Shown here: one piece after another, positions 25,128 through 53,100 of the stretch
Numbering within the stretch: the first letter of the stretch is position 1
Layout of the letters: each line of letters opens with the position of its first letter
Assembly (NCBI GenBank): GCA_026770575.1
Contig: MU657213.1
Span: 75,717 to 139,716 of the forward strand
DNA: 64,000 nucleotides
Source of the DNA: Pelagophyceae sp. CCMP2097
Taxonomy: Eukaryota > Sar > Pelagophyceae
Reading direction: 5' to 3'
The notes under the pieces: model-generated
The model's database searches: none
What the model saw: the letters and a program-made list of their open reading frames with translations, nothing else
Told to the model about the DNA's origin: nothing
Program-made: the position numbers and the translations under genes

Positions 25128-27489
25128 TTAGGAGAGGACCGTGTCCCCGGTGAGCTCGACGACGATGGCCTTTGTGTCTCCCGTCTGCGACGCGAGGTCG
25201 TCGAGGTGCAAGACCTCGAAGCGCACAGTCTCCGACTCGGCCGCCTCGGCCGCCGCCGCCGTTCGGTGCGGGAAGCGGCGGACCATCTCGTCGTGCGCCA
25301 CTACAACGCGCCGCAGCGGCTGCGCGGCGAACGAGGCGGGCTCTGGAACTCTCTCGCCCGGGTCGCGCCGGACGTTGTACCACTTGCCGCCGGGGCCGAG
25401 GTGCACTTTGAAGTCGCCGTGGCGCACGGCGCCGAGCGCGGTCCCAGAGTAGTGGAACATGGTCCGCCTGCGAGATTGGCCCTCGCCGTTCAAAAGCAGC
25501 GGCGTGGCGTCGACGCCGTCGACTACGCGGTCGGCGCGGGGCGAGGTGCGTCGCGTTGGCGAGGCGGCAAGCGGTGGTGAAGAGGTCCGTCAGATGGATC
25601 AGGTCCGTCGGGTCCTATTTTTTGTCATGATGGCGCCTCGGGACACGTGGGGCGTACCTGGTCTGGCGCAATCATGCCCGGCCACACGGCCAGGGCGGGG
25701 ACGCGCACGCCGCCCTCGAGGACGTCTCCCTGGCCGCCTCGGAGCCACGAGGAGCCGGTATTCAGGTCGTAGTTCGGCCCGTTGTCAGAGTACCTGCGGC
25801 GGCGTCTCGAGCTGCTCGAGGGGCGAATGGCCTCACCAGATAAGGATTTCCCGTAGTATCGTTTCAAATCCTCTCAAATGTCGTTTGCCAATGTCGTCGC
25901 GATGTCGAAAATTTCACCGCAAAAGTCGTCGGAAAAGCCGGCCGCAAAAGCCGCAAAAGCCGCAAATGTCGTCGGAATCTCCCTTAAAGTCCCCTGCCAT
26001 CGGATGACGGATTAACCCCCGAGTTAAAATTCTGATGCCTTGGTTTGAGGCTCCAGAGCGGCCCATGTCGGCCGTCTATCGTCATATTCACTTCAATTGT
26101 CGTCGGAAAGATCCCCCTCTTGGAAACACTTCAAATGTCGAAAAAATATATCTAATCCTACGGGAAATCCTTATCACCAGACGATGAGCGTGTTCTCCGA
26201 GAGGCCTCGCGCTTGGAGGTGCGAGCGGAGGTCGGCGAGGTGAACGTTGTGCTGAGCCATCGCCTGCAATTCATCGACGGTATAAACCCGCATGCCTCGT
26301 CGAAGCCTGCGTCGCGACGAGCCGACGCGTCGAGCTTCTCTGAAAGGGCCTTGCTGGCGGAGGACGGACCTGGTTGTTGGCGCCTTGTTGCGTGGCGCCG
26401 CAGAGCTGCGTGGCCCAGTAGATGAAGAAGGGTTCTTGCGTCTCGGCTTGGGCGGTGATCCAGGACTTGATTTGCGAAATCGACTCTTTCTCAAACGCTC
26501 CTTGCCGGCCCGCCCCAAGCGTCCCTTCAATTCCGCCGAGGGGCGATCGTCCTTGGCCCGATTCCCCGACGTACGCCGCGGTGCGGAGGTCGACGCCCGA
26601 ATCCCTTTCGTAAACTTCGAATCCTGGAAAGTCCGTGTGCGCGGGCCACGTGTCTACCATCCCGTCAAAGACGCTGTAGTAAGCATAGTCAAAGCCGTGC
26701 CGCTCCGGCGCATGCTCAAATAGTTCGCCTAGGTGCCACTTGCCCCACATGCCCGTCGCGTAGCCCGCCTTTTTTAGCACGCTCGCCACCGTCACTTCTT
26801 CAGAAGAGAGGCCCTCCGTGGCCCCCGGGAGCAGATCATTCGCGAGGCCCGCGCGCACGCCGTGGCGGCCCGTCGTCAATGCGACGCGCGACGGCGTGCA
26901 CGAATGCTCCGCGTACGCGCTCCAGAAGCGCATTCCTAAGCACAAGGCCGTCCAGTCGACGCGGCCGTTCCGCGTCGAGTCGACACTCGCCTTCCTTGGC
27001 CATCTTTTCGAGCTCGGGCGTGGGATTGCCGCAGTGCTTGCCTGCGCAGCGTGTTGGCTGCGAGCAGTTTCTCGTTCCTCGCTAGAGTATGCAGCGCGGG
27101 GGCCTTTGCAAAAGGAAATGGAAAGGAGTCCTCTCACCGCCACCTTGGAACCCGACTTCGCCCCAGCCCACGTCGTCGGCGAGGACGTAGATGATGTTCG
27201 GCCGCGCGCCGAAGCGGCCCCAGAGCCCCGCGAGGCGCCGCCTGCGAGGGAGGCGTCGCGAAAGGCAGCGCGTCGTCGGGCGCCCGGCCCCCCCGGCTCG
27301 TCGGGCGGCGTTGTCCCGGCGCGTTGGATCGACGCTGGAGCCTTGCTCGATGGCGTCGTCCTCGTCTGCCCACGCCGCCGCGTGCGTGTGGCGGAGCGCT
27401 TCGAAGGGTGCATCGAACTGCGGCACTGCAGTGACGCTCGCCGCCGCCGCAACGCAGAGCAGCCACGCCCAGAGCGAAACGCGGCGCAT
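25128..27489 (-). CDS. Secreted sulfatase (arylsulfatase type)
   Basis: A signal peptide (MRRVSLWAWLLCVAAAASVT) starts the protein. The N-terminal metal site is PNIIYVLADDVGWGEVGF. After an intron come GNPTPELEKMAKEG and the sulfatase signature HSCTPSRVALTTGRH, whose Cys is the one converted to formylglycine, then MWGKWHLGE. Later exons give EPFFIYWATQL, LSENTLIVW|YSDNGPNYD (second metal site), LEGGVRVPALAVWPG, DLIHLTDLFTTACRLANA and the C-terminal MFHYSGTALGAVRHGDFKVH. Family enzymes hydrolyse sulfate esters; here the substrate is probably an extracellular sulfated glycan. The donor after ENTLIVW carries a MITE insertion. One join, near 25515-25545, is one base out of phase for a GT-AG intron, so it is either a GC-AG intron or an indel. 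Confidence 0.88.
25841..26173. mobile_element. hAT-like MITE, 333 bp (element 2), inside a sulfatase intron
   Basis: The element has 16-bp perfect terminal inverted repeats (TAAGGATTTCCCGTAG at 25841-25856, complement at 26158-26173) and 8-bp target duplications TCACCAGA (25833-25840 and 26174-26181). The interior is strongly similar to element 1 at 14489-14899, for example over the GATGACGGATTAACCCCCGA block and the following ~60 bp. It has no coding capacity. On the sulfatase strand the duplicated target TCTGGTGA spans the exon-intron junction TCTG|GTGA, so the splice donor itself was copied. Splicing at the outer donor removes the element with the old short intron. Confidence 0.92.
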
Positions 27490-27813
27490 CGTCCGCGGCA
27501 GGAGACGGCCCGGACCACAGTCGGCGGCCCAGCGACGACTAAGTCACGACTTAAGCTTTACTTTTGTTCGCGAGTTTGAATCCTCGGTCCGTTAAAGAGT
27601 GTCAAGGCGTCGACGCGACGGCGTGAGCTGAACGACGGGGGGGCGCTGAGGCCGGCTTTAGCGCCGCAAGGGTCGTGGAGGCCCTGCCCAAGGGCGAGGC
27701 GGGCCCCGCGCTTGGACCTCGATGGATCCCCTCGCTTGCAAGAGTCCGGGCTCCCCATTGCGAGTGTTTACAGGCTTCCACCGCTTCGGCCTGTCGGACC
27801 CGTCTGCTCGGGT
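27490..27813. other. Spacer, no gene seen
   Basis: This spacer lies between the sulfatase start and the EGY-type protease stop, both on the minus strand. It is presumably the sulfatase promoter; nothing distinct was seen. Confidence 0.45.
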
Positions 27814-32015: not shown

Positions 32016-32538
32016 ATGGAGCTGCTCCCCGTCCTTGCCGCGGTGGTGGCGGGCCTGCTGGCGGCGTTCTTCCTCATCCGGTCCATGGCGTCCAAGACCA
32101 TTCCCGTGCCGCCGAGCCTCGCCCCGCCGCTCGTCGCGACGCGGCGTCGTTTACTCGGGGACGTTTAATACGGAGCTCTATGAGACCGCGCGCTCTATGT
32201 GACCCGGCGTAACCCATCCTGTATAGGCGCCGGCTGGGTCGACCAAGGCCACTTTTACTCTGGCCGAGGTCGCAAAACACGACCAGCCCGACGACGCCTG
32301 GATCATCGTCGCCGGGAAGGTCTACGACGTCACCAGATACATCGACGACCATCCCGGCGGTGCGTGGCATCGGAAAGCGGGAAGCGCGCAAGAACGCACC
32401 TTTTCGAGACGGCAACCCGTAGGCGCGTCGATTATGAACACCCTCGGCGGCGACTCTACCAAGGGCTTCAACGGGCCGCAGCACGCCGAGACGGCGCGCG
32501 ACGTTCTTCCCATGTTCTACATCGGCGACGTACGTTAG
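32016..32538 (+). CDS. N-anchored cytochrome b5
   Basis: Three exons (32016-32132, 32227-32359, 32423-32538) join in phase to 121 residues. An N-terminal membrane helix (LPVLAAVVAGLLAAFFLIRS) is followed by a short Pro-rich linker and a b5 domain: FTLAEVAKHDQPDDAWIIV, VYDVTRYIDDHPGG with the first heme His, and GGDSTKGFNGPQHAE with the second. The protein ends IGDVR, four residues after the domain. Cytochrome b5 carries electrons to desaturases, hydroxylases and other ER enzymes. Most ER b5 proteins have a C-terminal anchor; here the anchor is N-terminal, as in membrane-associated progesterone-receptor-type or some protist b5 proteins. The stop lies only 22 bp from the stop of the gene on the other strand. 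Confidence 0.9.
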
Positions 32539-32560: not shown

Positions 32561-35500
32561 TTATAAAGGCGCCTGCGTCGGCGGCGGAGTGAGAGTGCCG
32601 TTTGTACCGAGGCAGAGCTCGACCTTTTTGCGGTGCAGCGCTAGGATGAAGTAGTACAGCTCGACGTCCAACGCGTTGATTCGGTAGAGGAGCTCGAGGT
32701 TGTGGGGCGAGAGGGGCCCGGACTTGGTCCGAGTCTGCACCGGTTTTGTCCGCCCCACGCCTTTCACTCTCCTCTCCGAGCTGTGCAGCTCCGGGAAGTC
32801 GGCCTCGTCGGGCGTGTGTTCAGGGTCGCCTTTGAAGAAGGTTGGGAGGAGGATGCGGAAGAGCTGGACCGTGTTGGGCAAGTCCTCGAGGACTCCCACG
32901 TGTGCGTACGAATGCTCGACGTGCTCCTTGGCCAAGTCCAAAGCGCGCCGCGGCCTCGCCGGGTCGCGGCACTCTGGCGAATGGCCGCAAAACCTACGCA
33001 CCGCTTCTCTCGACCATCCCCCGTGGCCTCTTTGATTTCCAGGTCGACGCGGCGAAGTACCACCTCGTCATGTAGTTGTGGCACTCGTCCAAGAGCAGGG
33101 CCAGAGATTGGTTGCGCGAGAGTTTGAGGAACTTGCGCCACTCTTTTTTCGTGGCACCTTTTTCCGGGTTTGGATAGTCCTGGTAAAAGTGCTGCTCTTG
33201 CTTCAGCGACCACTGCCCAAAGGTGCACTCGCCCGAGTCGAGGCACTCGTTCAAGTCGACGGGCGGGAGACGCTTTTTGTAAAAGGCCTCGTAATTGTAT
33301 CTCGAGACGCACCGCCCGACGGGCTCTCTCGCCACGTTGACCAGAGCGACGCCTTTCGAGTGCGCATTGCGGACGTCGACGTAATAGACGTGCCTCTGCG
33401 TGACGAAGCGGCCAAAGTCGCCAAAGTGCGCGATACCGGCGAAATACGACTTCTCATCTGCCGGAGTCAGAAACCGGTGCTTCGGCAGGTGCGACGTCCA
33501 CCTGACCGTCTGCCTTTCAAGTGCCTCCAAAGGATTGCGCTCTGGATCGTTTGCCCGAGCCTCGACGCGGGCTTGTGCCAAGTCACGTCCGTCTGCGAAA
33601 GGCCGTGCTGGTGCATTGCCGTGGCGTTCAGCTGGCCCGACCTGGGTGGTCGAATGCGAGAGAGTGGTATCATGCAAAAGCGGCAGAAGAGGCCACGCTG
33701 ACGCACATCCATGCCATGACCGATGCGGACCCGGACTTCGGGATGCGGTTGTAGAGCACGCCGCGCGGGTCTCGCGGCGCGCAATCCGCGTGCCACGCAG
33801 GCACAAAACCCAACGACGCCTAACAACGTCGCATACCGTGCCGAGGCGGCATCAAAGGTGCGCACCGCGCGCTTGAGGGCCAACCTCTGCGACCGCGGCA
33901 GCGGCTTTTGCGGCGGCGGCGGCTTTGGCGGCGCAATGGTAGACTCTCGCGTAGAGTTCAAAAACGCCGCCACGCGAGCCTTGTACGCCCGGTACTTGGC
34001 CCCCTTGCCGACGGGCGCGCCGTCGGCGGCCGAATCGACGGCCGCCTTTGGGCAGCCTTTTTGTTTCACGGAGAGGCTGCGGCCGGGGATGGGCCGGTGG
34101 AGAGGGCAAGTGGACCAGGCCTCCAAGAAGTTGCACACTTTCGACCACGCCTCGGAAGCGTCCATCATCTCGAGGACGTCGTCCAGAAAGACGAGGCGGT
34201 GCGCCTGGCCGCGGGCCGCGAAGAATCGAACGATTTCGGCGTTGCGTCTGTTGTACGCCTTGACGAAGCGCCTCCGGAGGCGCGCAGCGACGCGGCCCTC
34301 GGCGTGCGCCTCGGGCGCGGGGCCGGCGAAAAAGGCCGTCTCGAGGGCCGTCTCTAAAAACGGCTCGCCGAGGACTCTTTCCGCGAGCTTGGCCCGCTTG
34401 CCCGCAGTTGCGCATCGAAGGCCGCGGTCCATGTGCGGCCACCACTCTTCCTCGGCCCTTAAAGTGAGGACGAACTTGGCGCGCGGGTACTTGGTTGCCA
34501 GTCTGGCGTAAACGTCTGAGGACGACCATGGCGCGTCCCAAAAGACTCGAGCCGAGTCGGCGGCCTAAACGGCCATTTTTTTATTTCAAGTGCGTTTTTT
34601 CAAGTCACAAGGCGCACCTCCCAAACAGCAGAATCGTCGCCGCGGTCCGCGGCGTCCGCCGCGCGCAGCCGCAGCGCCACGCTGCAGCGCCTGCGTTGCA
34701 CGCGCTCGGGGGCTGAGGATCAAAGGGCGCAGGGTTCGATTCTCAACGAGTCGCAGGGTTCGATTCTCAACCGAGTCGACTCACGGTTCGATCTTCATCA
34801 TGTCCAGCATCATCGCCACGTGCACCGCCCCGGTCCCAAAGGCCCCAACGAGGAAGACCTTGACCGAGGAATCGTGCTTGGCGGGCTTGTGCACGACGAG
34901 GCAGCCGGCGTCGCAACTGACGACTTTTGAGATCTTGTTTCGGCAGAAAAATGAAGAAGCCATGTCGTGGTGCCGCAAGCCGTGCTTCGAGACCGCGACG
35001 CTTAGAGCCACCATCAAAGCCGGCTGGTCGCGCGACGACGTGTAGCTCGGCCGCCGCCGCAGGAAGGTAAACGCCTCCAAGTAGAGATGCAGCATCTTCT
35101 CCGTGCGCGGCGAAGTCGAGAGGAGGACGACGCAGGCCGAGTTGTGCTCCAGCTTCAAATGGTCCTCGAGCGCCAGGCCTGACTGGCCGTCGAACTTGTT
35201 CGTTAGGGCGATGTCGAAGCCGTACGGGCTGACGAGGCCCGCGAGTTTCGCGGCAAAGTCCTGCGGCGCACATACCGGGGCTTTTGAGAGGGAAAGGGAC
35301 GCGCCTTATCACACGGCCGCGCGTCGAAGTCGAGGAAGATGGTCGTCACAAAAGGCGAATGGAGCATAGCCGTCACCTTGACGAGCTTCGACCGCACCTT
35401 CACCGGAGCATCCATTTGTCTCCCGTCGTCGTAGAAGAGCACATCGTCGAAGAACGCTTGGAGCTGCCCCGCCTCGTCGGAGTCGAGCGAACCCCAAAGC

Positions 35501-35936
35501 GGCCTTTCAATGAACAGCGCGAAACCGCACGGCCTCGAACCGCCGGCGTCCGCGATCCCGAGGTCGCGCTGCAGGTACCGCACCGTCGACAGCACCTCGC
35601 GCTGCACGAACTCGCGCGACCCCGCCGCGCTGTAGAGCACGCCGACGCCTGAGAGAGGCGGTCTGCGAAAGGAGGTCTGCGAAAGGCGCTCAGAGCGGTG
35701 TCCTCTGCGCGCTTCGCCGGACGCGCTCGGCGACCCCGGCCTGAGGACGAACCTCGTCGCTGGACCGGCGCCGCTGCGCGGGCCTTGTTGCCGGATTCGA
35801 CTTGGAAATTCGTGAGGTGGGCGTACGTCGCGTCCATGTGCTCATCCCACGAACTCTCAATAACCACGTCGAGCGCGGACATGACCGCGCCAGAGGCCGC
35901 CGCCGCGGAAAATGCCGCGAGACACGCCCGCCGCAT
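32561..35936 (-). CDS. Glycosyltransferase - sulfotransferase - 2-O-sulfotransferase fusion
   Basis: Exons form one open chain. Part 1, after the start MRRACLAAFSAAAASGAVMS, is a GT-A-like glycosyltransferase (GVLYSAAGSREFVQREVLST, FVTTIFLDFDARPC with a DxD site, GFDIALTNKFDG). Part 2 is a PAPS sulfotransferase: P-loop KVFLVGAFGTGAVHVAMML, then across two short introns VFWDAPWSSSD, YPRAKFVLTLRAEEEWW and WSKVCNFLEAW. Part 3, after a 47-nt GTGCGC...TTAG intron with phase 0 on both sides, is a heparan/uronyl 2-O-sulfotransferase-like domain: VLYNRIPKSGSAS, VALVNVAREPVGRCVSRYNY, FCGHSPEC, HSYAHVGVLEDL, ending at 32561. It probably acts in the Golgi to extend and sulfate a polysaccharide. Joins near 35285 (GC donor) and 33650 (donor choice) are less certain, so separate genes are not excluded. 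Confidence 0.72.
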
Positions 35937-36289: not shown

Positions 36290-38586
36290 CTAGGCGGCGC
36301 AGGCGGCGACGGCGGTGGCGAGGCCGCGGAGCTGCGCCTCGGAGTGGCGCACGGACGTGGCGACGCGGATCACCAAGGCACTTTTCCGCCTATGACGACG
36401 GTACGACGACGGTACGGCCGACGAACGTACGGCGGAAGCATGCGTCACTTGACCACGAGTCGCGTCGTCCCCGGTGTCGATCGAAACTCTGCTCCGGCTC
36501 TGTCGCCGCTCGGTCCTTGCTGACGGTTTGGGTTTTCCAACGACGCAGTTCCCAAAGACGCCGTTCCGAGCATGTCCTTGATAGCGGGCTCGTAGTGCAC
36601 CGCCGCGTCGCGGAACGACGTGTCGTGCTTCGCGACCTGCGCGACAAACGGTATCAGGCCAGCCGCGGGCAACCGCCATCGAGGACGACGACGCGACGGC
36701 AGCGGGGGCTTTGCGCGGTCTCTCCGCCCGGGACGCGGCCTGCCGCACGGCGACGGCGTAGCCCTTGCCCGCGATGGCGTCGACGATGTCCTCTAAGGCC
36801 TTGATGTCGCGCGCCGCGTCGCCGCTCGGCTCGGCGAGTTCGAGGTGCGTGAACGGCACAGCAGCCTCGCACAGCGGCGAGGCGACGCGGAGGCGCGTGC
36901 CCTGGAGCTGCGCCGCGAGGAGCGAGCGCAGGAGCTTTGAGTTGAAGGAGAGCTTAGGGAGCATGGTCGACGAGTCCGCGCGCAAGAGGTCCAGCGCCGC
37001 CAGCGCCGCCGTCGAGACAAAGGGCGGGGCCGCCGCGGAGAAGCAGTAGCCCGCGCCCGAGAGCCGCTGGTGGTCCACGACTTCAAAGGCCCCCACGCAG
37101 AGGCCGCCGACCTAAAGAGCGGCAGTCGGACGCCGACGCCTCGCAACACTCGCCCAAAAAAGGCGGCACCGAGCCGAGGGCGGGCCCGAGGTCGACCATG
37201 GTGATCTCGACCTTTGGCTGCTTGGGGTCGTCGCCAAAGGTGTGCTCGCGCAGGCCTTTTCCCGTTTTGCCCAGGACTCCGAACGAGAGCGACTCGTCCA
37301 AAAGCAGGCGGTACCCGTACTCGTCCTTGAGCCGCGCCACCGCCGCGAGAGGGCAGACGTCGCCGACCTACGCCAGCCGCGGATGCCCCACGCAAAGTGT
37401 TGGACAGTCGCTTTTGGACGCACGTCGCGGGAGATGGCCTCGGTAATAATAAAGCGCCGCTGCGCCGACCGCGGCCGTCGCTTCGCCTGGTCGTCCGCGT
37501 CCACCGCCTTCAGCACGCGCTCCAGGTCCGCCACGTCGTTGTGCGCAAACGCCTACGTCCGGAGTCTTCGTCAACGTCTACCAGCACGTGACAACTCACG
37601 ATGACGTTTGCGCGCGAGAGGACGCAGCCCGTGCGCAGGGGCTCGCACAGCGCATCGTCGACGACGAGAAGGTCGCCGCGCTTTGCAAAGGCTGCGACGG
37701 TGCTCGTGCAGCACGACGCGGAATCGGAAAAGGCGATGGCCGCCTCCGCGCCGCAGTAGTCCGCGATCGCCGCCTCCAACTCCAAGTGGACATCAAAGGA
37801 ACCGTAAAACCCGCGCGGGCCGCACGACCCGCAGCCGTACTTGCGCAGCGTCGCCGCCGAAGCCTCGCGTAAAGCGGCGCTGCACCCCATGGCCAAAAAG
37901 TCAAACGACGCGTTGTTCAGCAGCCGCGGGCCGGCGCCGACGAGCGCGCTGTTGAGCGCGCCGCCGAGCGCCGCGCCACCGCCGAGCGCGTCGCTGAGGA
38001 GCTTTTGGCCTTTGCCGCCAAGCAGAGCGTCCATCGCGCCCGCCGTCGCACCGAGCGCACTCGCCGCGCCGCCGAGCGCGCCGCCGCGGCTCGCGAGACG
38101 CACGTAGCCTACGGGCGGCGTGGGGCGCGAGTTTCGAGGAGTGCACTACGCACCGTCCGCGGTAAACTCTTCCACAACCCTTGCCTTCGAGTCGAGCATT
38201 TCGACCGCGGCCGAGGGCTTTGGCACCAAGGGCTCAGGCTTCCAGTCGCGGACGAGGGTGTCGATCTCGCGCGCGGTGAGCTTGGAGTCATCTTCGAGGC
38301 TCATCTTTTTGTTCCTCCGGCCGTTCAACAAAACAAAGACCAAAAAGCAGACGAGCACCGTCTCAATCGCGACGTGCTCCGGGGCCTCGCGCAGCAACTT
38401 GCGCCACCACGTGGCGTAGAAACTCGCGCCGAGGCGGCAGGCCCCGGAGAAGTCGCGGGCGACAAGAAGCTCGCCCAGCAACCCCCAGTTAGACACCAGC
38501 GCCTCCTCGACCTTCTGCGCCCAGGGCAGCGCCGACGCTGCGCGCGCGACCGCGACCATGGCCAGCGACCGAACCGCGCACCGCAT
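36290..38586 (-). CDS. SPTLC1: Serine palmitoyltransferase subunit 1 (LCB1)
   Basis: This multi-exon gene encodes the regulatory subunit of serine palmitoyltransferase, which starts sphingolipid synthesis at the ER. The N-terminal exon has a membrane segment (ETVLVCFLVFVLLNG) and the LCB1 block LTAREIDTLVRDWKPEPLVP. Later exons give YGCGSCGPRGFYGSFDVHLE, FAKRGDLLVVDD, RFIITEAISRD, LLLDESLSFGVLGKTGKGLR and VDHQRLSGAGYCFSAAAPPF, ending with ALVIRVATSVRHSEAQLRGL and TAG at 36292. DESLSFGVLG and HQRLSGAGYCFSA are typical of LCB1, which lacks the PLP-binding lysine found in LCB2, so this subunit needs an LCB2 partner not seen here. Several short GT-AG introns separate the exons; the join in the last third (36400-36720) is the least certain. 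Confidence 0.9.
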
Positions 38587-50193: not shown

Positions 50194-53100
50194 GCTCGTC
50201 GACCGACGGCGGCGCGACCGACGACGGCGTCTTGGCGGCCCCGACGACGACGGCGCCGACGCCGCAGCCGCTCGGCGGAGGCACGCGCGCACCGACGCCG
50301 AGACCCGAGGACCAGCCAGGCCCGACGCAGAGTCCGGTCGACGACTCGACGGGTGCCGCCTCGTTTTGCTGCTTCGAATCGCCGGCCGAAGACGGCTGCG
50401 GCGCCTGCAGCAGGTTCGAAAGCGGAACGTCGTTCTGCGCCGCTTCGAATATCAACTGCCAAGGCAGCTGCGGTGGCGTGTGGTGCGCCCGAGATGAAGA
50501 CGATTCCTCTCCGTCGCCCAAGCCGAGGGCCACGCCGACGCCCAAGCCGACAACGGCGCCGCGCCCGGCGCCCACGCAGACGGCGCCGACGGCCAGGCCG
50601 ACACCGCAGCCGACCGTCCAAGGTAAGGCGATTCAACGAATGTCCAGCGTGGCTCCTCCGGCTTGACGTCGACTCGCTGTAGGCGAAACGACCTCTCCGG
50701 CTCTCAAGCCGACGGCCAAGCCGACGCCGACGCCGACCGTCCGAGGCGAGACGACCGCGCCGGCGCCAAGGCCGACGCCAAGGCCGACTCTCCAGCCGCC
50801 GACGCAAATCATCAGTTGCATCGATTCGGCATCCTGGCACAAAACCGGAACCCCCTCGAAGGATTGCGCGTGGGTGCGCGCCTTCCACGAGGCAAGGTGC
50901 GACACCAGAGGGGTCACCGACGATTCCGAGGAGTCGCTCGCGAGCGACGCTTGTCTCGAAGCATGCGGAACGTGCGACTCCGCCTCGACGACGCCTGCTC
51001 CGACGGCGAAGCCGACGCCGCGGCCGACCGTTCAAGGCGAGCCGACGCCGACGCAGCCGACTCTCCAGCCACCGACCCCTTGCGTCGATTCGGAATCTTG
51101 GCACAAGACTGGAGACCCCTCGAAGGATTGCGCCTGGGTGAGCGCCTTCCACGTGGCGCGGTGCGACACGAGAGGAGTCGCCGGGAATGCCGAGGAGATG
51201 CTCGCGAGCGAGGCGTGCCTCGAAGCTTGCGGGAATTGCAATTCGGCTGCGACGACGGCTGCCCCGACGCTGAAGCCGACGCTGAAGCCGACCCCTCAAG
51301 GTGCGACGATCGCGCCGACGTCGCGGTCGACCCCGACTCATCGGCCGACTCTAGGCGGCACGACGCCAGCCCCGACCCAAGGAGGTGATGCGAGCGACGT
51401 CCCGACATGGACGCCGACGGCCAAGCCGACGCCGACGCCGACGGCCAAGCCGACGCTGCGGCCGACGGCCAGAGACGCCGAGGTCGGCACGTCGTTGGAC
51501 AACCTCTTTGCGACGTCGGAGTCGTTCTACGTCAACCCAACGTACGCAGTGAACCTCGAAAACTCTATCGCGACCGCCGGCTCTNNNNNNNNNNNNNNNN
51601 NNNNNNNNNNNNNNNNNNNNNNNNNNNNNNNNNNNNNNNNNNNNNNNNNNNNNNNNNNNNNNNNNNNNNNNNNNNNNNNNNNNNNNNNNNNNNNNNNNNN
51701 NNNNNNNNNNNNNNNNNNNNNNNNNNNNNNNNNNNNNNNNNNNNNNNNNNNNNNNNNNNNNNNNNNNNNNNNNNNNNNNNNNNNNNNNNNNNNNNNNNNN
51801 NNNNNNNNNNNNNNNNNNNNNNNNNNNNNNNNNNNNNNNNNNNNNNNNNNNNNNNNNNNNNNNNCGTCGTTGGACAACCTCTTTGCGACGTCGGAGTCGT
51901 TCTACGTCAACCCAACGTACGCAGTGAACCTCGAAAACTCTATCGCGACCGCCGGCTCTGCGACGATCGCCGCGACGCTCGAGGAGATGAAGTCCGTCGC
52001 CTCGGCGTACTGGATAGACGTCAAGTCCAAGATCGAGCTAGAATCTACCGGAGGTCTCCGAGGCATCCTCCTCGACGCCGCGAGCCAGTCGCCGCCGCCG
52101 CTCTGCGTCTTTATCGTCTACGACCTCCCGAACCGCGACTGCCACGCAAAGGCCTCCAACGGCGAGATATGTTGCACGTACAACGACGACGGCACGTGCG
52201 ACTACGAGGTCGCCGGGTCGACGTGCAAGGACGGCCTCGAAGAGTATCGCACCGAGTACATCGACCCTTTCGCGGCGGTCCTCGCGGAGTTTGACGGCAT
52301 CGTGCCCATCGCGCTGGTCATCGAGCCGGACTCGCTTCCCAACTTTGTGACCAACTCGGGCAACCCGCGGTGCGGCAACCCGGCCACGAGGGCCGCGTAC
52401 AAAGAGGGCATCAAGTACGCGATTACGGCCATCGCGGCCGCGACGGATCACGTATCCATGTACCTCGATGCCGCACACGGCGGTGCGCGCCTGTTTTGCA
52501 TCTGTTTGACCTTTTGGCGCCTGCTCGTCGTATCCGCGTTTGATCGCCGGGCTCTTGTCTAGCATGGCTCGGCTGGGACGACAACCTCGCGGGGTTCGCG
52601 TCGGCAGTCGCCGAGCTCGGGATCGAGGAGCACCTTCGTGGCGTCGCGACAAACGTTGCAAACTACCAGCCGCTCGGCGAGCCCTGTCCCGTTCAAACAT
52701 CTTCCAGCGTCGACGATCGTACCCCCTCCCAGTGGCTGCTGACGACGAGTGATTTTGGTAGGTGGGCGTCGATTGCATCTCGGGTCCCGGTCAGAGCTCG
52801 GCGTGCTGCGACGACCCATGCGGCCTGCTGGGCCAGTATAACCGCGCCAACAACGAGTACAACTATGCCACGCGCCTCGTCGCAGCGTTCAAGGCCAAGA
52901 TGCCGAGCTGGGACCCCCACGTGATCATCGACACGGGACGGAATGGCAACCCGGAGGACCGGCCCGACTGCGCGACGTGGTGTAACCCGAGAGACATGGG
53001 CGTCGGGCGCGTCCCGACGTCTGAGACTGCCTCGGGCATCGTCGACGCGATCTATTGGCTCAAGACGCCCGGCGAATCGGACGGCTGCACGCAGGAGCTG

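Follow-up and report, generated by a model that had tools for sequence, protein, structure and literature searches.

A pelagophyte gene encoding a glycosyltransferase domain, a probably degenerate sulfotransferase domain and an HS2ST-like domain in one chain

A single gene on the minus strand of contig MU657213.1 from Pelagophyceae sp. CCMP2097 (GenBank assembly GCA_026770575.1) joins three domains in one chain of 941 aa: a glycosyltransferase (GT) domain, a Sulfotransfer_4 domain and a domain like heparan sulfate 2-O-sulfotransferase (HS2ST) or uronyl 2-O-sulfotransferase, in that order. The gene occupies positions 35936-32561 of the 64,000-nucleotide stretch analysed here (contig positions 75,717 to 139,716, hereafter the window). 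Each domain is of a known kind; what appears to be new is that all three form one conserved chain and that the middle domain has decayed. An earlier note on this DNA had described one gene carrying a glycosyltransferase and two different sulfotransferases. The single chain and the order of its domains stand, but activity of both sulfotransferases is not supported, as the phosphosulfate loop of the middle one is degenerate. With moderate confidence, we read the predicted product as a secretory-pathway protein in which a GT and a single active carbohydrate sulfotransferase would work on the same glycan, with a pseudo-sulfotransferase between them.

The sequence motifs quoted in the earlier note were all located on the minus strand in the order given there, its gene bounds were matched (ATG at 35936, stop at 32563-32561), and the three domains fall in one reading frame once the introns are removed. 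The first join lies inside exon 3, where the end of the GT domain (CLVVHKPAKHD) is followed by the start of the Sulfotransfer_4 domain (VKVFLVGAFGTGAVH). The note had instead put this join at an intron of about 60 nt; the intron nearby measures 94 nt (34784-34691) and interrupts the Sulfotransfer_4 domain itself. The second join falls in a proline-rich linker with a 46-nt GT-AG intron (33865-33820), as the note had proposed for the entry into the third domain. A purpose-written spliced aligner, run with P0001 and with all full-length homologues but P0005 (five of six), recovered this intron in every case. Moreover, P0001, a 538-aa JGI (Joint Genome Institute) protein, matches residues 404-941 of the model letter for letter over 32561..34432 (minus strand), and this identity spans four introns, including the linker intron between the second and third domains. 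The nucleotide record of P0001 (2879 nt) equals, by arithmetic only, the coding sequence of 2826 nt plus the 53 nt of intron 4. This intron contains an in-frame TGA, which by the same arithmetic would explain why the called P0001 protein begins at the next methionine.

The protein search, made like the Pfam search of the joined protein with a 950-aa draft of the chain, was restricted to proteins whose length is 0.55-1.75 times that of the query, so that short stand-alone relatives with one domain fall outside it. It gave 10 homologues. Six of them (P0002-P0006 and P0008) cover 94-100% of the draft at 44-54% identity and carry the complete GT, Sulfotransfer_4 and HS2ST-like order in a single chain. 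P0008 is from Chrysophaeum taylorii, class Pelagophyceae, and the order is thus found in a pelagophyte relative, where the earlier note had suggested looking. That note had also held that separate transcripts or separately encoded orthologues would speak against a fusion; neither was encountered within the length range searched, as P0001 passes over the second junction without a break and fused chains make up six of the 10 homologues. Because the full order recurs in these six and 538 residues exactly match an independent record, we consider the fusion to be more than chance. A misprediction joining two or three close-lying separate genes would be conceivable in such a gene-dense genome, P0001, P0007 and P0010 start after the GT domain, and the extra GT47 domain of P0008 could itself have arisen in this way. 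We nevertheless reject separate genes as very improbable, because the first join is within an exon, P0001 spans the second and six homologues in the length range searched carry the fused order.

The extra domain of P0008 is an Exostosin GT47 domain (residues 33-348; 9.7e-32) placed ahead of the three-domain chain. GT47 was considered as a component of the system and set aside: it was present only in P0008 among the seven homologues scanned and is read as lineage-specific or as a prediction error. In the window, the nearest same-strand match upstream of the fusion gene is an aminotransferase, not GT47.

The GT domain carries a DxD motif after a hydrophobic strand (TIFLDFDARPC). DFD is invariant in all eight rows of the GT alignment (A2), as are many of the residues flanking it, and mean identity over the region is 0.55. 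The domain has a GT-A fold, and we take its structural neighbours to lie near GT71/GT8 in the CAZy nomenclature; no CAZy family (GT71, GT8 or GT77) could be assigned because the fold matches are tied. The earlier note had suggested that the protein could polymerise a glycan. This is not supported, as a single GT domain indicates at most sugar transfer.

The Sulfotransfer_4 domain is recognized by PF17784 with 36.3 bits (cut-off 22.8), and the same profile exceeds its cut-off in four of seven homologues scanned. The loop that holds the phosphosulfate reads GxxRTGTxS in the reference sequences (9kf1, 8y9p and genome loci C72 and C14), of which the window retains three of six positions, the strings having been placed by hand; lost are the serine and the basic residue, together with the second threonine. 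In P0004, P0005, P0006 and P0008 the loop contains deletions. This domain is also the least conserved and fastest-evolving of the three. These features suggest that the middle domain has probably lost binding of 3′-phosphoadenosine-5′-phosphosulfate (PAPS) and is a pseudo-sulfotransferase.

The C-terminal domain, by comparison, is the most conserved of the three and its motifs are intact. The PAPS-loop lysine, the catalytic histidine and the arginine and serine of the 3′-phosphate site are invariant in 9/9 rows of the alignment (A3) and align with HS2ST. The relationship to solved HS2ST is detectable both by sequence profile and by fold. PF03567 exceeds its cut-off in two of the seven homologues scanned (P0002, 22.2; P0003, 30.3).

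Several observations weigh against a reading in which a GT is joined to a pseudo-sulfotransferase and a single active sulfotransferase. Profile searches of the joined protein, proposed in the earlier note, placed PF17784 above its cut-off but PF03567 at 20.6 bits, below the cut-off of 22, and no Pfam GT family above cut-off for the GT domain. Sub-threshold GT matches are confined to PF03407 (best 0.0018, in 2/8 members) and PF11051 (0.11, in 1/8), and a PDB search with the GT profile gave a chance match only (0.38). In the C-terminal domain, the HGH histidine pair of HS2ST is QRH, with one histidine replaced by glutamine, and because the model of this domain has low confidence (mean predicted local distance difference test, pLDDT, of 53.5) its fold match is supporting only. 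P0001, P0007 and P0010 have no GT part and P0009 stops before the third domain; these four may be truncated or genuine shorter forms. Finally, P0002 keeps five of the six loop positions and P0009 four, and the middle domain may therefore be active in some relatives.

Two alternatives draw on these observations. If the GT were inactive as a transferase, as the lack of any GT family above cut-off could suggest, the protein would consist of one sulfotransferase and two helper domains presenting the acceptor. We regard this as unlikely, as the DxD motif and many residues around it are invariant in a region that is more than half identical on average. Alternatively, all three domains could be catalytic, the two sulfotransferases performing distinct sulfations alongside a single sugar transfer. 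The nearly complete loop of P0002 favours this, as does the PF17784 score of the window's own domain, but the three residues missing from the window loop, the deletions in four homologues and the fast evolution of the domain make it similarly improbable. We thus retain the reading with a single active sulfotransferase, the C-terminal one.

Paralogues were sought in the genome (66.2 Mb, 638 contigs). The GT domain occurs at three loci: the fusion gene (C50), C10 and C13. At C10 and C13 it is followed by a Sulfotransfer_4 domain, with the GT end and the sulfotransferase loop in one open frame at both; the third domain was not found in the 8-kb stretches examined there, and the open frame of C10 meets a stop shortly past the sulfotransferase domain. 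PF17784 loci lie on six contigs, with C10 detected by the protein search; loops were read at C50, C72, C14, C13 and C10, C37 and C2 being left out. The nearest relatives of the third domain exist in single copy, although other PF03567 loci are on C46, C10 and C28. Since two paralogues lacking the third domain persist in the genome, an origin from a GT plus Sulfotransfer_4 gene is probable, and the simplest history is that one copy of such a gene gained the third domain. Scans for viral and prokaryotic relatives gave 2, 11 and 6 pattern matches, none of which was confirmed, no phage record matched (near mode), and fold matches in BFVD were to single domains only.

A scheme consistent with the motifs can be proposed. 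The N-terminus is hydrophobic in six of the seven proteins tested, and a lumenal Golgi location is most likely: the signal-peptide-like N-terminus would direct the protein of about 941 aa into the endoplasmic reticulum and Golgi. There the GT-A domain, with its DxD motif, would use a nucleotide sugar as donor to add a single sugar to a glycan. The Sulfotransfer_4-type domain, having lost residues that hold the phosphosulfate, most probably acts as a folded spacer or as a module holding the acceptor. Beyond the proline-rich linker, the HS2ST-type domain would sulfate the same glycan, with PAPS as the donor. The ancestral GT plus Sulfotransfer_4 gene, of which two more copies remain, would have acquired this last domain. 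One may go further and picture a conserved pelagophyte machine that extends and sulfates, assembled by stepwise fusion, in which the decayed sulfotransferase is a scaffold handing the sugar from the GT to the HS2ST-like domain; we offer this only as a tentative and rather doubtful extension.

The gene model comprises nine exons (Table 1), joined by hand, with two splice sites revised after comparison with P0001 and the homologues; the model of 941 aa is therefore later than the 950-aa draft used for the searches. Its eight introns measure 104, 44, 94, 53, 46, 65, 77 and 67 nt, six being GT-AG and two (35304-35261 and 33578-33502, minus strand) GC-AG. Besides the linker intron, five introns were recovered in 5/5 homologue alignments: 35304-35261, 34784-34691, 33706-33642, 33578-33502 and 33060-32994, the last three and the linker intron also with P0001. 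Intron 1 (35752-35649, 104 nt, GT-AG) was found in 3/5, and the alignments of P0008 and P0006 placed other introns within exon 1. The donor of intron 4 is ambiguous, at 34617 in three of the five alignments and at 34608 in two. We also considered a 32-nt intron at 35312-35281 but preferred the GC-AG intron of 44 nt, which the spliced alignments support. Further introns proposed in the weakly conserved middle region, between 34432 and 33866 (one each with P0003 and P0006, two each with P0004 and P0008) were not accepted; they are read as length differences because P0001 treats these stretches as coding.

Table 1. Exons of the fusion gene, with positions in the window.
Exon	Position	Strand	Content	Support
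1	35753..35936	-	Start codon, signal-peptide-like N-terminus; GT region begins	Hydrophobic N-terminus
2	35305..35648	-	First part of GT-A domain, ending in the DxD motif (DFDARPC, 35325-35305)	
3	34785..35260	-	Remainder of GT-A domain, directly into Sulfotransfer_4 from about 34864; degenerate loop VKVFLVGAFGTGAVH	
4	34618..34690	-	Inner part of Sulfotransfer_4 domain; end uncertain, 34618 or 34609	
5	33866..34564	-	Remainder of Sulfotransfer_4 domain (up to about 34112), then proline-rich linker	PF17784 match
6	33707..33819	-	HS2ST-like domain begins; PAPS loop YNRIPKSGSAS (33753-33721)	
7	33579..33641	-	HS2ST-like domain	Spliced alignments
8	33061..33501	-	HS2ST-like domain; QRHVYY (catalytic-histidine position) and NVAREPVGRCVSRY (3′-phosphate site)	
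9	32561..32993	-	End of HS2ST-like domain (FCGHSPECR), stop	

Two short repeats were seen in the gene, both on the minus strand. GAATCGAACCCTGCG is present twice without mismatch in intron 3 (34728-34742 and 34752-34766) and nowhere else in the window, against 0.02 expected. Exact copies of CCTTTCGCAGAC occur three times in the gene, twice in intron 1 (35661-35672 and 35675-35686) and once in exon 7 (33591-33602); with at most one mismatch this sequence has six matches in the window against 0.62 expected.

Around the fusion gene, a Cytochrome b5 frame (PF00173, 3.2e-22; 32227-32538, plus strand) ends about 22 nt from the fusion stop on the opposite strand. The aminotransferase match lying upstream on the same strand (class I/II; PF00155, 2.5e-5; 37513-38145, minus strand) is presumably similar to a serine palmitoyltransferase subunit. 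An open frame at 26274-27557 (minus strand), some 5 kb away from the fusion gene, encodes a Sulfatase domain (PF00884, 9.3e-15), so that a sulfate-removing enzyme neighbours a sulfate-adding one. Farther away lies a glycosyl hydrolase family 6 domain (PF01341, 1.1e-33; 50667-52559, plus strand). Rfam gave no match within the window and NCBIfam nothing meaningful.

Assembly and sulfation of sulfated glycans usually fall to different Golgi enzymes. A conserved fusion of this kind would bring sugar transfer and sulfation together in one location and hold them to a constant ratio, and one recombinant protein would suffice to test directly in which order they occur. Those paralogues that have an intact loop and no third domain offer a natural comparison for the passage from an active sulfotransferase to a spare part. 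The gene may also bear on the possible making of sulfated slime by bloom-forming pelagophytes.

Each part of the chain has known counterparts. The GT domain shares the GT-A fold and the DxD motif with GT-A glycosyltransferases such as MNT2 (7xjv), glycogenin (3rmw) and LARGE1 (7zvj), but differs from the known families in giving only sub-threshold Pfam matches and tied fold matches. Unlike members of the Sulfotransfer_4 family (PF17784; Cpz8, 9kf1/9kf2; SgdX2, 8y9p), most fused members have an eroded or deleted phosphosulfate loop, and the fusion's copy is sandwiched between two other domains. In comparison with HS2ST and uronyl 2-O-sulfotransferase (PF03567; 3f5f, 4ndz), the third domain forms the C-terminal third of a fusion, carries added insertions and has glutamine for one histidine of the pair. 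The architecture as a whole is alike in principle to that of N-deacetylase/N-sulfotransferase (NDST), the classic two-enzyme chain for glycan modification, in that one chain pairs a sulfotransferase with another glycan-active domain.
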